Origin: Periweissella beninensis
GTDB taxonomy: Bacteria > Bacillota > Bacilli > Lactobacillales > Lactobacillaceae
NCBI RefSeq assembly: GCF_016908275.1
Contig: NZ_JAFBDN010000003.1
Location: forward strand, 1 to 64,000
Direction of reading: 5' to 3'
Length of the DNA stretch: 64,000 bases
The position numbers were made by a program, and so were the translations under genes. Below are positions 3,977 to 48,616 of the stretch, one piece after another (position 1 is the first letter of the stretch; the number at the start of each line of letters is the position of its first letter). The notes under the pieces were generated by a model. It saw only the letters and a list, made by a program, of their open reading frames with translations. It made no database searches and was not told the DNA's origin.

Positions 3977-5032
3977 GTGCCAGAAATAGAGAGTTTGGAT
4001 CTTAATAAACAATCAGTTAAAATAAAATGGCAAAATTTTTTGAAAAAGCGTGGTATTAGTAATTTTGCGGATAATGAAATAACAAACATTGATACAACAA
4101 TTGGGTTATTTGAAGCAAATTCTTTAATTGCGACTGGCTCAATTGCTGGTAATGTAATAAAGTATGTTGCTGTTGAGAATGAAACTAATGAAAGTAAAGG
4201 AGCTCTTTTTAATAAAATTGTTTCAGCATTAGTTAGCTGTTTAGCTAATCAAGGGATCTTTCACATATTTGTATTTACTAAACCGGAGTATAGCAAAACT
4301 TTCGAACATGTAGGCTTTTCGTTGCTAGCTACATCAGAAAAAGGGGTAATTTTAGAAAAGGGGATGCCAGATATAAATAGCTATTTAATGGCTATAAATG
4401 CTTCAAGCAAATTGGAAAATAAAAAAATCGCAAGTATTGTGATGAATGCTAATCCGTTTACTAAAGGGCATCGTTTTTTAGTTGAGCAAGCAGCATTGGA
4501 AAATGATTTAGTATATGTTTTTGTAGTTGAACAAGATGTATCATTATTTACGACAAATGAAAGAGTTAAATTAGTAAAGCAAGGTGTTAGTGATTTAACA
4601 AATGTTAAGGTTGTGTTAGGTGGTCCATATATGGTGAGTTTTGTTACTTTTCCAGCTTATTTTATTAATAGTCCTATTGATATAATTGATTATCAAACAA
4701 CCTTAGATGCACAAATCTTTAAAAACTGGGTGGTTCCACAACTTAAAATTACCAGTCGTTATCTTGGCTGTGAACCATTTTCGAAAACTACGAAGCGCTA
4801 TAATGAAATATTACAACAACAATTAAGTGATGTGATTAGTATTAAAATTATTGAACGAAAAATGATTGACGCGCAAATTATTTCAGCAACTAAAATAAGA
4901 CTAGCTATTAAAGAGACGGATTTATTGTTAATTAAAGAGTTGGTACCATTAACGACTTTTAAATTTATAAAAAATAACCTTAATATATTACAGGAACGTA
5001 TTCAGAAAGGACAAAAAATTAATGGAAATTAA
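3977..5032 (+). CDS. citC: [Citrate (pro-3S)-lyase] ligase CitC
   Basis: CitC acetylates the thiol of the citrate lyase prosthetic group with ATP and acetate, which activates the lyase. The 351-residue protein has a GNAT-like N-terminal half and a nucleotidyltransferase half with MNANPFTKGHR, whose KGHR signature is at residues 163-166. The start is GTG at 3977 behind GAAGAGG; an ATG six bases earlier is in another frame and closes at once. The end overlaps citD by 11 bases, so the two are likely translationally coupled. Length is normal for the family. Confidence 0.93.
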   Translation: MPEIESLDLNKQSVKIKWQNFLKKRGISNFADNEITNIDTTIGLFEANSLIATGSIAGNVIKYVAVENETNESKGALFNKIVSALVSCLANQGIFHIFVFTKPEYSKTFEHVGFSLLATSEKGVILEKGMPDINSYLMAINASSKLENKKIASIVMNANPFTKGHRFLVEQAALENDLVYVFVVEQDVSLFTTNERVKLVKQGVSDLTNVKVVLGGPYMVSFVTFPAYFINSPIDIIDYQTTLDAQIFKNWVVPQLKITSRYLGCEPFSKTTKRYNEILQQQLSDVISIKIIERKMIDAQIISATKIRLAIKETDLLLIKELVPLTTFKFIKNNLNILQERIQKGQKINGN

Positions 5033-13140: not shown

Positions 13141-13298
13141 TTCTTCATAGAGAGTGCGTAAGGGACTTGCCCGATGATCGCACACCAACCTACATTTGCA
13201 AAGGATGCAAGGTGGTAAGACAAGATTCGATGAAGATAGTTGTTAACTGTGTATTGGGCAATTGCGACTATCCGAGTCAAGGATGGTCGCAATTTTTT
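13141..13298 (+). promoter_or_regulatory. SAM-I (S-box) riboswitch with terminator platform
   Basis: P1 pairs TCTTCAT (13142-13148) with ATGAAGA (13230-13236). P2 pairs GTGCG with CGCAC and encloses the hallmark AAGGGACTTGCCCGATGA. An ACCT/AGGT-closed P3 arm with TTGCA/TGCAA follows. The terminator is 13261-13273 with 13281-13293 plus a T run. An alternative 9-bp pairing, 13235-13243 with 13264-13272, uses the 3' strand of P1 and the 5' arm of the terminator. This fits the OFF switch known for SAM-I: SAM stabilises P1 and the terminator forms. The kink-turn differs slightly from consensus. Confidence 0.88.
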
Positions 13299-15992: not shown

Positions 15993-16224
15993 TAATAGAT
16001 TAACTGCTAAGAATATATCTTAAAAAAATTGATATTATTTGGCACAGTACTTGCAGTTTTTCCTTTCTAAATTGTTAATTATATATTGATGTGAGTGGTA
16101 ATAAATTAATTAAGCCAGTAACTTAATAGTAAGTAAATATAATTATAACACGAGAAACGGTTGTTAAATTAGGAAGAAGTTGTTAAAATTAATTCAATTG
16201 CAAATAACTGTAACTAAATTAAAG

Positions 16225-16425
16225 TACTAGTTAGAAAACAAGCTTAGAGAGTGGATACTTGCTGCAAATCCATGTTGTTGACTGATGAACTCGTTAATTT
16301 TTAAAAGTTACCGTCTTCCAACGATAATGGAGTAAGAATGAGGTAGAAGGAATTCTATAAATTCGGGTGGTACCACGATGAAATCGTCCCGTAGTCAAAG
16401 CAATTTGGCTACGGTTTTTTAGTTC
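16225..16425 (+). promoter_or_regulatory. Leucine T-box leader of leuS
   Basis: The T-box core GGGTGGTACCACG is at 16365-16377 and the distal Stem I region with GTGGATACTTGCTGCAAATCCAT-like pairing lies around 16250-16275. The likely specifier is CTC (Leu) in GATGAACTCG. The TGGT bulge fits a tRNA with discriminator A, as in tRNA-Leu. The terminator follows at 16389-16420. Uncharged tRNA-Leu would favour the antiterminator and read-through into leuS. Confidence 0.93.
16389..16420 (+). terminator. Terminator of the leuS T-box
   Basis: The stem CCGTAGTC (16389-16396) with GGCTACGG (16407-16414) is followed by six T. Its 5' arm borders the antiterminator formed around the T-box sequence. Confidence 0.9.
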
Positions 16426-26073: not shown

Positions 26074-26102
26074 ATGACAAACTATTGAGAAAATGATAAG
26101 AT
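26074..26102 (+). promoter_or_regulatory. Promoter of the first transporter operon
   Basis: ATGACA (26074-26079), a 17-base spacer and TAAGAT (26097-26102) with a TGA extension. The transcript would start near 26109 and include the leader ORF at 26138. Confidence 0.6.
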
Positions 26103-26137
26103 TTTATATGAATAAAAATTTTAGAGGTATATCTTAC

Positions 26138-26209
26138 ATGTGTCAATTTGATAACAATCAGAATAACAATGAAAATAACACAAGTAATAATTGTGTTTAT
26201 TTTGCATAG
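26138..26209 (+). CDS. Asn-rich 23-residue leader peptide
   Basis: A short frame starting ATG at 26138 encodes 23 residues, nine of them Asn, with the core DNNQNNNENNTSNN, and ends with TAG. AGAGG lies about 10 bases upstream. It is not annotated in the usual sense because of its size, but it sits between a promoter and a terminator hairpin (26248-26289) ahead of a glutamine/asparagine-type transporter gene. TGTGTCAA at 26139-26146 is the exact complement of 26221-26228, and TTTGCATAG (26201-26209) can pair with 26256-26264 beside the terminator. This is the layout of ribosome-mediated attenuation, with stalling on Asn codons favouring read-through. The function is inferred. Confidence 0.6.
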   Translation: MCQFDNNQNNNENNTSNNCVYFA

Positions 26210-26247
26210 TTTTCTGATGTTTGACACAATAGTCAAAAATGTTGGTG

Positions 26248-26289
26248 AAAGCAGGCTATGTGAATTATTGCAAAGTCTGCTTTTTATTT
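26248..26289 (+). terminator. Attenuator terminator before the first transporter gene
   Basis: A 10-bp stem, AAAGCAGGCT (26248-26257) with AGTCTGCTTT (26274-26283), is followed by TTATTTAT. It lies between the leader peptide and glnPH1, 45 bases before the transporter start, so it must be passed for expression. Confidence 0.75.
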
Positions 26290-26334
26290 ATGTAAAATTA
26301 TATTTCGACATAAGCGTATTCACAGGAGGATCAC

Positions 26335-27783
26335 ATGTTTAAAAAATGGTTAGGGTATATCGCAGTCAGCTTTGCAGTGTTAATAGGATTTAGCATTGTG
26401 AACACCGAACAGCAAGTAAGTGCAACGACTGAGCCACATTACACGATTGCAACAGATACCACTTTTCCACCATTTGAATTTCAAGGAAAAAATGGAAAGT
26501 ATGTTGGAATTGATATGGACTTATTAGCAGCAATTGCTAAAAAGGAACATTTTACTTATAAGTTGACCCCAATGAGTTTTAATTCAGCAACGCAATCTGT
26601 TTTATCAGGACAGATTGATGGTGTAATTGCAGGAATGACGATTACTGATGAACGGGAAGCTGTATTTGATTTTAGTAAATCATATTATAAAACAGGAATC
26701 ATTATGGCTGTAAATAAAGCAAGTAAAATTAAAAAGCTGACTGATTTAAAAGGTAAAACGGTTGCTTTAAAAACAGGAACTGGTTCAGCGGAATATGCGC
26801 GGGGAATTCAAAAGAAATATGGCTTTAAAGTAACATACTTTAATGATTCAAATACAATGTATAATGACGTTAAAGTTGGTAATTCAGATGCGACATTTGA
26901 AGACATGCCTGTTATGCAGTATGCGATTAAAAATGGGGTTGCCTTAAAAATTGTTACGAAGCCAACATTAGCCGGTTATTATGGTTTTGCGGTTAAAAAA
27001 GGTCAAAATAAAGCACTTTTACAAGCATTCAATAGTGGCTTAGCCAAAATTAAAGCGGATGGTACTTACCAAAAAATTGTTAATAAATATTTAGATGCTT
27101 CTGCAAGTAAATTTTCTGGATCAAAAGCAGATAATACAACTTTTTGGGGTTTAATTAAATCTAATAAAACACAATTTATTAATGGGTTAGTTAAAACCAT
27201 CCAATTAACAATAATTAGTATTTTATTAGCGTCAATATGGGGAATTATTTTAGGACTACTTGGTGTATCACCATATAAGTGGCTACAAGGTTTATCAACA
27301 ACGATTATATACATTTTCCGTGGATTACCATTAATGGTATTAGCATTTTTCATTTATATTGGGCTACCAAACCTAACTGGGGATAAAATTCCGGCATTTG
27401 TTGCAGGGATTGTAACGCTAGTGTTAAATGAAGGGGCCTATATTGGTGCCTTTGTCCGTGGTGGGATTGAAGCCGTTGATAAAGGGCAAATGGAAGCTGC
27501 TCGTTCGTTAGGATTACCATATGGTCGAGCAATGAGCAAGGTTATTATGCCACAAGGTGTAAAAATCATGATTCCATCATTTATTAATCAGTTTATTATT
27601 ACTTTAAAAGATACTTCAATTCTCTCAGCAATTGGCATTATTGAATTAACACAAACTGGAACGGTGATTATTTCACGTAATATGCAAGGATTTAAGGTTT
27701 GGTTAATTGTCGCTATTATCTATCTAGTAGTTATTACACTGTTAACTTGGTTATCAAACTGGGTTAAAACAAAAATGAAATAA
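26335..27783 (+). CDS. Amino acid ABC transporter, fused binding protein and permease (1)
   Basis: This 482-residue protein joins a signal sequence (about 1-31), one substrate-binding domain (about 35-255, beginning HYTIATDTTFPPFEFQGKNG) and a permease domain with about five membrane helices (about 275-480). The permease carries the EAA-loop sequence GQMEAARSLGLPYGRAMSKVIMPQ. It is of the GlnP type, which takes up glutamine, glutamate or asparagine in lactic acid bacteria. Usual lactococcal GlnP has two binding domains (about 720 residues); only one is present. AGGAGG precedes the ATG. The ATPase gene follows by 25 bases and a paralogue lies downstream. Confidence 0.88.
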   Translation: MFKKWLGYIAVSFAVLIGFSIVNTEQQVSATTEPHYTIATDTTFPPFEFQGKNGKYVGIDMDLLAAIAKKEHFTYKLTPMSFNSATQSVLSGQIDGVIAGMTITDEREAVFDFSKSYYKTGIIMAVNKASKIKKLTDLKGKTVALKTGTGSAEYARGIQKKYGFKVTYFNDSNTMYNDVKVGNSDATFEDMPVMQYAIKNGVALKIVTKPTLAGYYGFAVKKGQNKALLQAFNSGLAKIKADGTYQKIVNKYLDASASKFSGSKADNTTFWGLIKSNKTQFINGLVKTIQLTIISILLASIWGIILGLLGVSPYKWLQGLSTTIIYIFRGLPLMVLAFFIYIGLPNLTGDKIPAFVAGIVTLVLNEGAYIGAFVRGGIEAVDKGQMEAARSLGLPYGRAMSKVIMPQGVKIMIPSFINQFIITLKDTSILSAIGIIELTQTGTVIISRNMQGFKVWLIVAIIYLVVITLLTWLSNWVKTKMK

Positions 27784-27808: not shown

Positions 27809-28546
27809 ATGACTGTAAAAGTTAGTGTTAAAGATTTGCATAAATCTTATGGAGACAATGAAGTTTTAAAAGGTATTAATCTTGACGTTCAAGAAAATGA
27901 AGTTGTCGTGATGATTGGACCATCTGGTTCAGGGAAGAGTACTTTTTTAAGAACTTTGAATAAATTAGAAGAACCAACAAGTGGTGAAATTACGATCAAT
28001 GGTTCAAATTTATTAGATCCTAAAACTAATTTGAATAAAATCCGTGAAAATATTGGAATGGTATTTCAACATTTTAACTTATTTCCACATTTAACTGTTT
28101 TACAAAATGTTATGTTAGCACCAACTGAATTAAAAAAAGCTGATTCAAGCGAAGCTAAAAAAGAAGCTTTAGATTTATTGGACCAAGTTGGCTTGCGTGA
28201 AAAAGCAGATGCAATGCCAGCCCAATTATCAGGTGGACAAAAGCAACGAGTGGCTATTGCTCGCGCGCTAGCTATGAAGCCAAGTATTATGCTATTTGAT
28301 GAACCAACATCAGCCTTGGATCCAGAGATGGTTGGGGATGTGTTAGCAGTAATGAAAGACTTAGCCGAAAAGGGAATGACAATGATTGTGGTAACCCATG
28401 AAATGGGCTTTGCTAAACAAGTTGCAGATCGCGTAGTTTTCTTTGCAGATGGATATATTCGGGAACAGGGAACACCACAAGAGGTCTTTGATAATCCGCA
28501 AGATCCGCGTGCGAAGGATTTCTTGGATAAAGTTTTAAATGTATAG
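27809..28546 (+). CDS. glnQ: Amino acid ABC transporter ATP-binding protein
   Basis: This 245-residue ATPase powers the adjacent permease. It has Walker [10 protein letters not shown] at residues 37-45, a Q loop, the signature LSGGQKQR, Walker [15 protein letters not shown] and the switch histidine in VVVTHEMGF. It is of the polar amino acid uptake family (GlnQ/HisP). It is the only ATPase gene in the cluster and so probably serves both flanking transporters. A GGAGG site precedes the ATG. Confidence 0.92.
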
Positions 28547-28572
28547 AATTAATTAATAATGGAGGAATAGCA

Positions 28573-28686
28573 ATGTTAATCTTAGCTAATAATGGTAATA
28601 ATAAGATGAGTGCTAATAATAGTGTGCACTTATTTGCGTTAGCTATCTTGCGTTATCAGCTTAGTCCTCTAACATTGTTAAACTGA
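28573..28686 (+). CDS. 37-residue leader peptide with Asn-pair clusters
   Basis: An ATG at 28573 stands 7 bases after a strong GGAGG and opens a 37-codon frame ending in TGA at 28686. The first half has Asn codons in pairs (ANNGNNKMSANN); the second half is Leu-rich and contains LAILRYQLSPL. A strong terminator follows at 28695-28731, then the second transporter gene. TATCAG (28654-28659) can pair with CTGATA (28683-28688), which includes the stop codon, so ribosome position could change folding. Its Asn pattern and position match the leader at 26138, although the two peptides are otherwise different. A role as attenuator peptide is inferred; a small functional peptide is an alternative. Confidence 0.65.
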   Translation: MLILANNGNNKMSANNSVHLFALAILRYQLSPLTLLN

Positions 28687-28694
28687 TACTTTTC

Positions 28695-28731
28695 AAGACA
28701 GGTAAGGTAAAATGGCTTACTTGTCTTTTTT
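28695..28731 (+). terminator. Attenuator terminator before the second transporter gene
   Basis: A 12-bp stem, AAGACAGGTAAG (28695-28706) with CTTACTTGTCTT (28716-28727), is followed by a T run. It lies 9 bases after the leader-peptide stop and 47 bases before the next gene, separating glnQ from glnPH2. Confidence 0.88.
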
Positions 28732-28777: not shown

Positions 28778-30232
28778 ATGAATGCTCGTGTTTTATTGAA
28801 AAAAATCTTTTTTCCACTGATAGTAATCTTAATCTTATTTAGTTTTAGTAGTGCTGATGCACATGCAGCTAACAAGCAAGCACATTATACAATTACAACG
28901 GATACAACTTATCCACCTTTTGAGTTGCAAAATAAAAATGGTAAGTATGTTGGCATAGATATTGAAATTTTGAATGCTATTGCTAAAAAAGAAAATTTTA
29001 CTTATAAATTAGTGCCAATGTCATTTAATTCAGGGGCACAAGCTGTTCTATCAGGACAATTTGATGGCATTATGGCCGGAATGGCAATTACACCGGAACG
29101 ACGTAAGGTTTATGATTTTGGTACGCCATATTATAAAACAGGGGTAATTGTCGCAGTTGCTAAGAATAGTAAAATAAAATCATTAGCTGATTTAAAAGAT
29201 AAAAAAGTAGCACTAAAAACGGGGACTGGCGCAGCCGCCTATGCACTTTCAATTAAGAAAAAATATGGATTTAAAGTAACCTATTTCAATGATTCAAATA
29301 CCATGTATAACGATGTTGCAATTGGTAATACAGTTGCAACATTTGAAGACGATCCTGTGATGAAATATGCCATTAAAAATGGAACAAAATTAAAAATTAT
29401 AACGAAACCGGCTAACTCAGGCTACTATGGATTTGGAGTTAAAAAAGGTCAAAATAAAGAATTGATTCGTCGCTTTAATAGTGGTTTTGCCAAAATTAAA
29501 GCCGATGGAACCTACAATAAAATTGTAAAAAAATATTTAGGAGCTAGTCAGTCTGAATTTTCAGGTAGTGCCAAAACAAATAACTCAATTTGGGGTTTAG
29601 TTAAACAAAATAAAGATCAATTCCTTAGTGGTTTATTAAAGACAATTCAATTGACGATTTTAGGAATTATTTTTGCGACAATCTTGGGGGTAATTTTAGG
29701 ACTACTAGCAATTGTACCTAACAAACTATGCCAAGCAATCTCAGGTATTATTGTGTATATTTTTAGAGGATTACCGTTATTAGTTTTGGCTTTCTTCATT
29801 TACATTGGGATCCCATCGTTAACTGGACATAAATTACCGGCAATGTTTGCTGGTTTATTGACACTAACCTTGAATGAAGGAGCATACATTGCTGCCTTTG
29901 TTGCGGGTGGATTAAAGGCAGTGGATAATGGTCAAATGGAAGCAGCCCGATCATTAGGACTAAGTTATTGGCAAGCCATGCGCCGCATTGTAATGCCACA
30001 AGGTTTTAGAATTATTGTGCCATCTTTTATTAATCAATTTATCATCACGCTAAAAGATACTTCAATTTTATCAGCGATTGGCATTATTGAATTAACTCAA
30101 ACCGGTACGGTGATTATTTCACGTAATATGCAAGGCTTTAGAATTTGGTTTATTGTAGCAATTATGTACTTAGTAATGATTACTTTATTAACATTTTTCG
30201 CAAATTGGGCCAATAAAAAATTAAAGCACTAG
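28778..30232 (+). CDS. Amino acid ABC transporter, fused binding protein and permease (2)
   Basis: This 484-residue paralogue of the protein at 26335 has the same order: signal sequence (about 1-30), one binding domain (HYTITTDTTYPPFELQNKNG), then a permease domain with GQMEAARSLGLSYWQAMRRIVMPQ. Long stretches are identical between the two, for example FIITLKDTSILSAIGIIEL. No ATPase gene follows, so it likely shares the GlnQ encoded before it. It appears to be a tandem duplication with diverged binding domain, possibly for a different amide or acidic amino acid. A GTAGG site lies about 9 bases before the ATG. Confidence 0.87.
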   Translation: MNARVLLKKIFFPLIVILILFSFSSADAHAANKQAHYTITTDTTYPPFELQNKNGKYVGIDIEILNAIAKKENFTYKLVPMSFNSGAQAVLSGQFDGIMAGMAITPERRKVYDFGTPYYKTGVIVAVAKNSKIKSLADLKDKKVALKTGTGAAAYALSIKKKYGFKVTYFNDSNTMYNDVAIGNTVATFEDDPVMKYAIKNGTKLKIITKPANSGYYGFGVKKGQNKELIRRFNSGFAKIKADGTYNKIVKKYLGASQSEFSGSAKTNNSIWGLVKQNKDQFLSGLLKTIQLTILGIIFATILGVILGLLAIVPNKLCQAISGIIVYIFRGLPLLVLAFFIYIGIPSLTGHKLPAMFAGLLTLTLNEGAYIAAFVAGGLKAVDNGQMEAARSLGLSYWQAMRRIVMPQGFRIIVPSFINQFIITLKDTSILSAIGIIELTQTGTVIISRNMQGFRIWFIVAIMYLVMITLLTFFANWANKKLKH

Positions 30233-48463: not shown

Positions 48464-48597
48464 AAATCCTTTAAAAGTCGTCCAGTGAGGCGCTTAAGGA
48501 TTTCATCAATTAATATTTAAGATTACAAAGACACAACTAATTGTGACCAAGCATATTGATGAAAGCCCTAAGCCTAATACTGGCTTGGGGCTTTTTT
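48464..48597 (+). promoter_or_regulatory. PyrR attenuator of uraA
   Basis: The PyrR-binding loop GTCCAGTGAGGC (48479-48491 region) is closed by AAATCCTT (48464-48471) with AAGGATTT (48496-48503). An antiterminator can form between TTTCATCAAT (48501-48510) and ATTGATGAAA (48555-48564). The terminator is AGCCCTAAGCC (48564-48574) with GGCTTGGGGCT (48582-48592) plus T run. The three folds overlap in the standard exclusive way: PyrR with UMP would stabilise the first and permit termination. No pyrR gene is in the window. Confidence 0.9.
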
Positions 48598-48616
48598 AGA
48601 TAATCTGGAGGAAAAA

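Follow-up and report, generated by a model that had tools for sequence, protein, structure and literature searches.

Asparagine-rich leader frames ahead of the gln importer operons of Periweissella suggest ribosome-mediated attenuation

What is the role of a very short reading frame, crowded with asparagine codons, that lies with a predicted intrinsic terminator directly ahead of the genes of an amino acid importer? This question is raised by a locus of Periweissella beninensis, contained in a stretch of 64,000 nucleotides (contig NZ_JAFBDN010000003.1, positions 1 to 64,000) that we call the window. A preliminary description, made from the letters of the window, had noted a 23-codon frame with nine Asn and two Gln codons, a terminator and then glnPH, and this anatomy is as it had described (Table 1; glnPH starts at 26335). 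It overlooked a second Asn leader, at 28573. It had also proposed ribosome-mediated attenuation, which our comparison supports, as the frame, its Asn codons and the terminator are kept in five of five genomes of the genus, at both operon copies. Based on these comparisons and on folding models, we consider it very likely that ribosome-mediated attenuation of transcription, governed by how fully tRNA-Asn is charged, controls each copy of the gln operon.

Table 1. Features of the gln locus, in coordinates of the window
Feature	Position	Strand	Detail
Promoter-like pair	26074-26102	+	ATGACA (26074-26079), 17-base spacer, TAAGAT (26097-26102); consensus match
Putative ribosome-binding site of leader a	26123-26127	+	AGAGG, 10 bases 5' of ATG
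Leader frame a	26138-26209	+	ATG 26138 to TAG 26209; 23 codons; MCQFDNNQNNNENNTSNNCVYFA; 9 Asn, 2 Gln
Core of hairpin 1:2	26177-26197	+	AACACAA (26177-26183, inside Asn codons) with TTGTGTT (26191-26197); minimum-energy fold
Segment 2	26200-26209	+	TTTTGCATAG; frame end including stop codon; modelled 5' strand of antiterminator
Predicted intrinsic terminator (3:4) of leader a	26247-26285	+	-16.9 kcal/mol
Segment 3 of antiterminator	26256-26264	+	CTATGTGAA; within 5' arm of terminator
glnPH1	26335-27783	+	GlnPQ-type substrate-binding and permease fusion, by homology
glnQ	27809-28546	+	ATPase; top NCBIfam match GlnQ, 329 bits (equivalog cut-off 379)
Putative ribosome-binding site of leader b	28561-28565	+	GGAGG
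Leader frame b	28573-28686	+	37 codons; MLILANNGNNKMSANNSVHLFALAILRYQLSPLTLLN; 7 Asn
Predicted intrinsic terminator of leader b	28694-28731	+	-15.5 kcal/mol
glnPH2	28778-30232	+	second substrate-binding and permease fusion, by homology

The start codon of leader a is our choice, in-frame ATGs being also present at 26093 and 26108, neither with a ribosome-binding site; the starts of all ten leaders discussed below were likewise chosen by us, and several of the frames could also begin at another in-frame codon. Folding of 26105-26334 gives a z-score of -4.65, and none of 200 shuffles is as stable. The genes downstream encode an importer of the GlnPQ kind by homology, although the NCBIfam equivalog cut-offs for GlnH, GlnP and GlnQ are all missed. 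Among solved structures, the best relative of glnPH1 is 6h30 (Glutamine ABC transporter permease and substrate binding protein), with an E-value of 3.4e-111. The glnPH1 product falls below the GlnH and GlnP equivalog cut-offs and reaches that of the permease domain TIGR01726. In the second copy, no glnQ lies directly 3' of glnPH2 in the window.

We compared five Periweissella genomes (G000 to G004, G000 being the window genome), in which the leaders of the first and second operon copies are denoted a and b. The preliminary description had called for the alignment of leaders from related genomes, and the Asn-rich frame and the terminator were retained ahead of each gln operon copy in all five, giving ten leaders of ten. 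Leader frame a has orthologues in each of the four other genomes, and an Asn-dense frame b takes the corresponding place at the second copy in each of the five. From G000 to G004, the a-leader peptides are MCQFDNNQNNNENNTSNNCVYFA, MCLFENNWKNSELNANNNCVFFA, MKFRLQNHESNNQETTSNCVYFALVIFSD, MKFQLQTSENNNQKNTISCVSFAYVIFTD and MKFQLQNSENNNQKTTSNCVYFAFVIFSD, and the b-leader peptides are MLILANNGNNKMSANNSVHLFALAILRYQLSPLTLLN, MKQGKVSMLMAQATNNLNNNNLGADNNAPFLHYSN, MTKSSKNNNSARNLPNQLGFLRRLFSGTGLAV, MIMSLENNNNARNLPNQLGYLRRLFSETGLSV and MTMYQENNNNARNLPNQLGFLRRLFSGTGLSV. All ten terminators lie between the frame and the first gene, with predicted energies of -14.6 to -21.4 kcal/mol. The promoter-like pattern ATGACA-17-TAnnnT, a consensus match, precedes eight of the ten leaders, G002b to G004b among them; it was not found for G000b and G001b. 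Directly behind leader a comes glnPH in G000 and G001, but glnQ in G002 to G004. The gene order is thus swapped, yet the leader stays in front, indicating that it belongs with the operon and not with one gene. The intergenic stretch that precedes the second gln copy is unusually long in G001, at 888 bases when measured past the glnPH start, and an inverted repeat, GCCAGTAAATTACTTGG ... CCAAGTAATTTGCTGGC, was seen by eye at about 4795-5015 of this locus (L135), perhaps an inserted element. Flagellin was found in four of our five genomes and not in G001. This pattern fits Periweissella, whose five described species include one, P. cryptocerci, that is reported to lack motility proteins (PMC10745875).

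The codon content of the leaders points to asparagine. Asn accounts for 62 of the 301 leader codons (54 AAT and 8 AAC), compared with a fraction of 0.044 in neighbouring genes (2793 residues from seven genes of the window). The enrichment is strong in all ten leaders; G002a and G003a have only 4 Asn among 29 codons. When each leader was shuffled 2000 times and a frame of equal Asn density with a ribosome-binding site was required, no shuffle qualified for G000a (dinucleotide shuffles of its intergenic region, with an ATG frame), G000b, G002b, G003b or G004b, one each for G001a and G001b, two each for G003a and G004a, and 27 for G002a. This bears on an alternative in which a leader peptide attenuates the operon and the driver is glutamine, or a general slowing of translation of the antibiotic or stringent type. 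The GlnPQ family takes up glutamine too (PMC8025302), and at least one Gln codon is present in nine of the ten leaders. However, Gln codons show no enrichment (17 of 301 leader codons, compared with 0.046 in neighbouring genes) and is missing from G001a, so we rejected it as the sensed amino acid; a general slowing would not be expected to select for one amino acid. We therefore regard this alternative as quite unlikely.

If asparagine is the signal, attenuation would proceed as follows, where we infer the translation of the frame, the pausing, the read-through and the response to asparagine. The leader frame would be translated while RNA polymerase moves ahead. With ample charged tRNA-Asn, the ribosome would reach the stop codon and cover segment 2, allowing the terminator 3:4 to form and turning the importer off. 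When asparagine is short, the ribosome would instead pause on the Asn codons and cover segment 1, preventing hairpin 1:2. Without this hairpin, segment 2 would pair with segment 3, block the terminator and permit transcription of the importer genes.

The predicted structures contain the elements that such a mechanism needs. Most of the minimum-energy folds show a hairpin with the Asn codons on its 5' side and the end of the frame on its 3' side, and then the terminator; the folds of G000b, G001a and G001b are less clear on this arrangement. We modeled the ribosome as a footprint mask moved along the frame one codon at a time, and at each step set the energy of the fold with an enforced terminator against that of the fold in which the terminator's 3' arm is left unpaired. 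Placing the A site on the Asn run weakens the terminator by several kcal/mol in G001a, G002b, G003a, G003b and G004b, relative to free RNA or to a ribosome at the stop codon. In G002a and G002b, the profile has further dips at later codons other than Asn; it is nearly flat in G000a and G000b. In the controls, the leader was shuffled and the terminator kept. With the footprint alone masked, which is the stricter test, at most one of 60 shuffles matches the contrast in six of the ten leaders, and 4, 7, 13 and 17 of 60 do so in G001b, G004a, G000b and G000a, respectively. When the RNA behind the ribosome is hidden as well, which corresponds to the classical model, the contrast between Asn codons and stop codon is positive in all ten leaders, and at most one of 100 shuffles equals it in eight; the other two are G002a (6 of 100) and G000a (10 of 100). 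Folding with a ribosome on the Asn codons, which the preliminary description had proposed as a check, thus gives the contrast throughout when the upstream RNA is hidden, but leader a of the window, to which the proposal referred, is the weakest of the ten by itself, and we judge it mainly through its orthologues. At equilibrium, the terminator is still favoured at nearly all ribosome positions. Therefore, the attenuation model needs co-transcriptional folding.

Pairing between segments 2 and 3 appears in the window leader when the modelled ribosome stands on the Asn codons and the upstream RNA is hidden. The modelled antiterminator joins TTTGCATAG (26201-26209) to CTATGTGAA. The last codons had been thought to pair with bases beside the terminator arm; instead, their partner is the terminator's own 5' arm. 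According to a hand alignment of the short segments, the a-type antiterminator has seven standard pairs in all five genomes. One of these occurs as U-A (two genomes), U-G (two) or C-G (one), and another as G-U (four) or G-C (one). RNAalifold, applied to a MAFFT alignment, predicts hairpin 1:2 and the terminator. Of the 45 predicted pairs, 10 have changed on both sides in one or more sequences, but many are disrupted in one sequence or another and the covariation term is near zero, five sequences being too few for more. We also considered a second complementarity, to which the preliminary description had drawn attention. In the window, TGTGTCAA (26139-26146) is indeed the exact reverse complement of TTGACACA (26221-26228), but the pairing is kept only partly in G001a and is absent from G002a to G004a, and it was rejected as a key element.

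The same comparisons address two further explanations. The frame might encode a functional small protein, with a terminator that is its own or that responds to some RNA or protein signal independent of the codons. The frame ends are similar among the a leaders across species, but the a and b peptides have little in common except Asn, the hairpins of the folding model tie the frame to the terminator, and no Rfam family was found above cut-off at the leaders; we consider this explanation improbable, to about the same degree as a glutamine signal. It is highly improbable that the nascent peptide arrests the ribosome in the manner of erm leaders through the C-V-x-F-A end of the a peptides, since this motif, though present in all five a leaders, is missing from the b leaders, and its codons form the antiterminator strand, paired in five of five genomes, so that their conservation is explained at the RNA level.

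Attenuation by a translated leader, our preferred reading, also has to be set against the T-box, another sensor of tRNA charging. No T-box (RF00230) was matched in the window at gathering score, and none at the gln operons of the genus up to E 0.1 (L111 and L135 to L138). We rejected both a T-box and any other Rfam family for the leaders, with all matches up to E 0.1 considered. Thr_leader (RF00506) gave three weak matches in L135 and L138 (35-40 bits, cut-off 55), away from the leaders. The window genome as a whole has 21 T-box matches, 8 of them above cut-off. One match under the cut-off lies in the window, at 16211-16394 (81 bits, cut-off 93), and appeared only in the genome search; the window also has a SAM riboswitch at 13142-13236 and a PyrR binding site at 48464-48600, both at gathering score. 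The five asnS loci have no T-box in the upstream sequence available, which contig ends limit to 861-1128 bases in G000, G002 and G003.

A need for imported asparagine is suggested by the gene content of the genus. Neither asnA nor asnB (above cut-off) was found in any of the five genomes, and asnS was found in all five. Weak partial matches to asnB are present in each genome and look like other amidotransferases. The genus thus seems unable to make asparagine, and free asparagine probably has to be imported. The SBD1 domain of Lactococcus GlnPQ has a KD for Asn of about 0.2 μM, and transporters of this family also import glutamine (PMC8025302). By homology, the operon probably serves asparagine.

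The position of leader b raises the possibility of a second decision within the operon. Leader b may be an attenuator inside the operon, acting in series with the first. In the window, it has no promoter-like pair by the pattern used and starts 26 bases 3' of the glnQ stop codon; transcription that has passed leader a would then have to pass leader b before it reaches glnPH2. Two asparagine attenuators in series within one transcription unit are a tentative reading of the window, possible rather than probable.

Outside the genus, the Asn leader is likely absent. We scanned for frames in 53 of 109 loci (L001 to L053; 5 from the genus and 48 from outside it, some of the same species), over at most 1700 bases ahead of the match, or a shorter stretch where the locus ended sooner (224 bases in L009). 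The scan flagged four of the five genus loci, the exception being L004, where no 10 consecutive leader codons contain more than 3 Asn. It also flagged seven of the 48 other loci (L010, L020, L021, L023, L033, L043 and L044), with a ribosome-binding-site-like word in L020 and L044. No terminator was found in the 450 bases before the gene in L020 and L023, and the other five flagged frames lie beyond that reach; no convincing Asn leader emerged from the 48 loci, among which L020 was the one inspected directly. A covariance model of the five a leaders (R1), run over 397 genomes of the family, returns the five genus genomes at E < 1e-18, as it must by construction, and seven others at E 0.002-0.08. 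The corresponding model of three b leaders (R2), also run over 397 genomes, returns those three and two others at E about 0.05, and fails to recover G000b and G001b, so that genus members alone match either model convincingly; searches over more than 40 genomes used stricter filters. The nine weak places have no convincing Asn frame within their 500-base middle stretch. Rfam, run at gathering score on 36 of these 48 loci from outside the genus, gave a single T-box, which lies some 2.7 kb ahead of the gln match in L038. A plasmid collection yielded five records, with distant transporter relatives only. Absence outside the genus is therefore likely and falls short of proof, given the reach of the scan, the subset of loci and the repeated species.

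Leader-peptide attenuators control trp, his, leu and thr genes in enteric bacteria. The Periweissella leaders share with known attenuators of this kind a short frame rich in one amino acid, the modelled alternative pairings 1:2, 2:3 and 3:4, and, by homology, cognate genes downstream. They differ in their Asn codons, in preceding an importer rather than biosynthetic genes, in their tandem pair and in their host, a member of the Lactobacillaceae with many T-boxes. Within the Bacillota, described cases include the ribosome-mediated attenuator Rli60/ilv of Listeria, for branched-chain amino acids (PMC5864092), the Leu-rich ilv leader of Staphylococcus aureus (PMC5794164) and the his leader ahead of hisZ and hisS* in bacilli (PMC2965389). 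In lactobacilli, T-box leaders serve amino acid transporters, and one ABC transporter with an Asn T-box is tabulated, by column order for Lactobacillus acidophilus (PMC2494555). Both devices read tRNA charging through a terminator decision, but the gln operons of Periweissella lack a T-box and would sense through a translated frame. Compared with GlnPQ of Lactococcus lactis (PMC8025302), homologous substrate-binding domains are fused to the permease in both; the Periweissella proteins have one binding domain per polypeptide, are encoded by two tandem genes and have predicted substrates. The mechanism is thus already known. For the asparagine case, we found no description in the titles and abstracts of open-access papers, in agreement with the preliminary description, which knew of no Asn-sensing leader peptide of this kind.

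A probable attenuator present twice per genome, in a genome with this many T-box matches, provides a genus-limited case for asking why one lineage has a leader peptide where its relatives have a T-box or nothing. Our model predicts that the importer would serve mainly for asparagine, and that the leader would offer a simple genetic readout of tRNA-Asn charging. If the two attenuators do act in series, they would give an apparent auxotroph with a T-box-rich genome a graded, two-threshold response to asparagine shortage.
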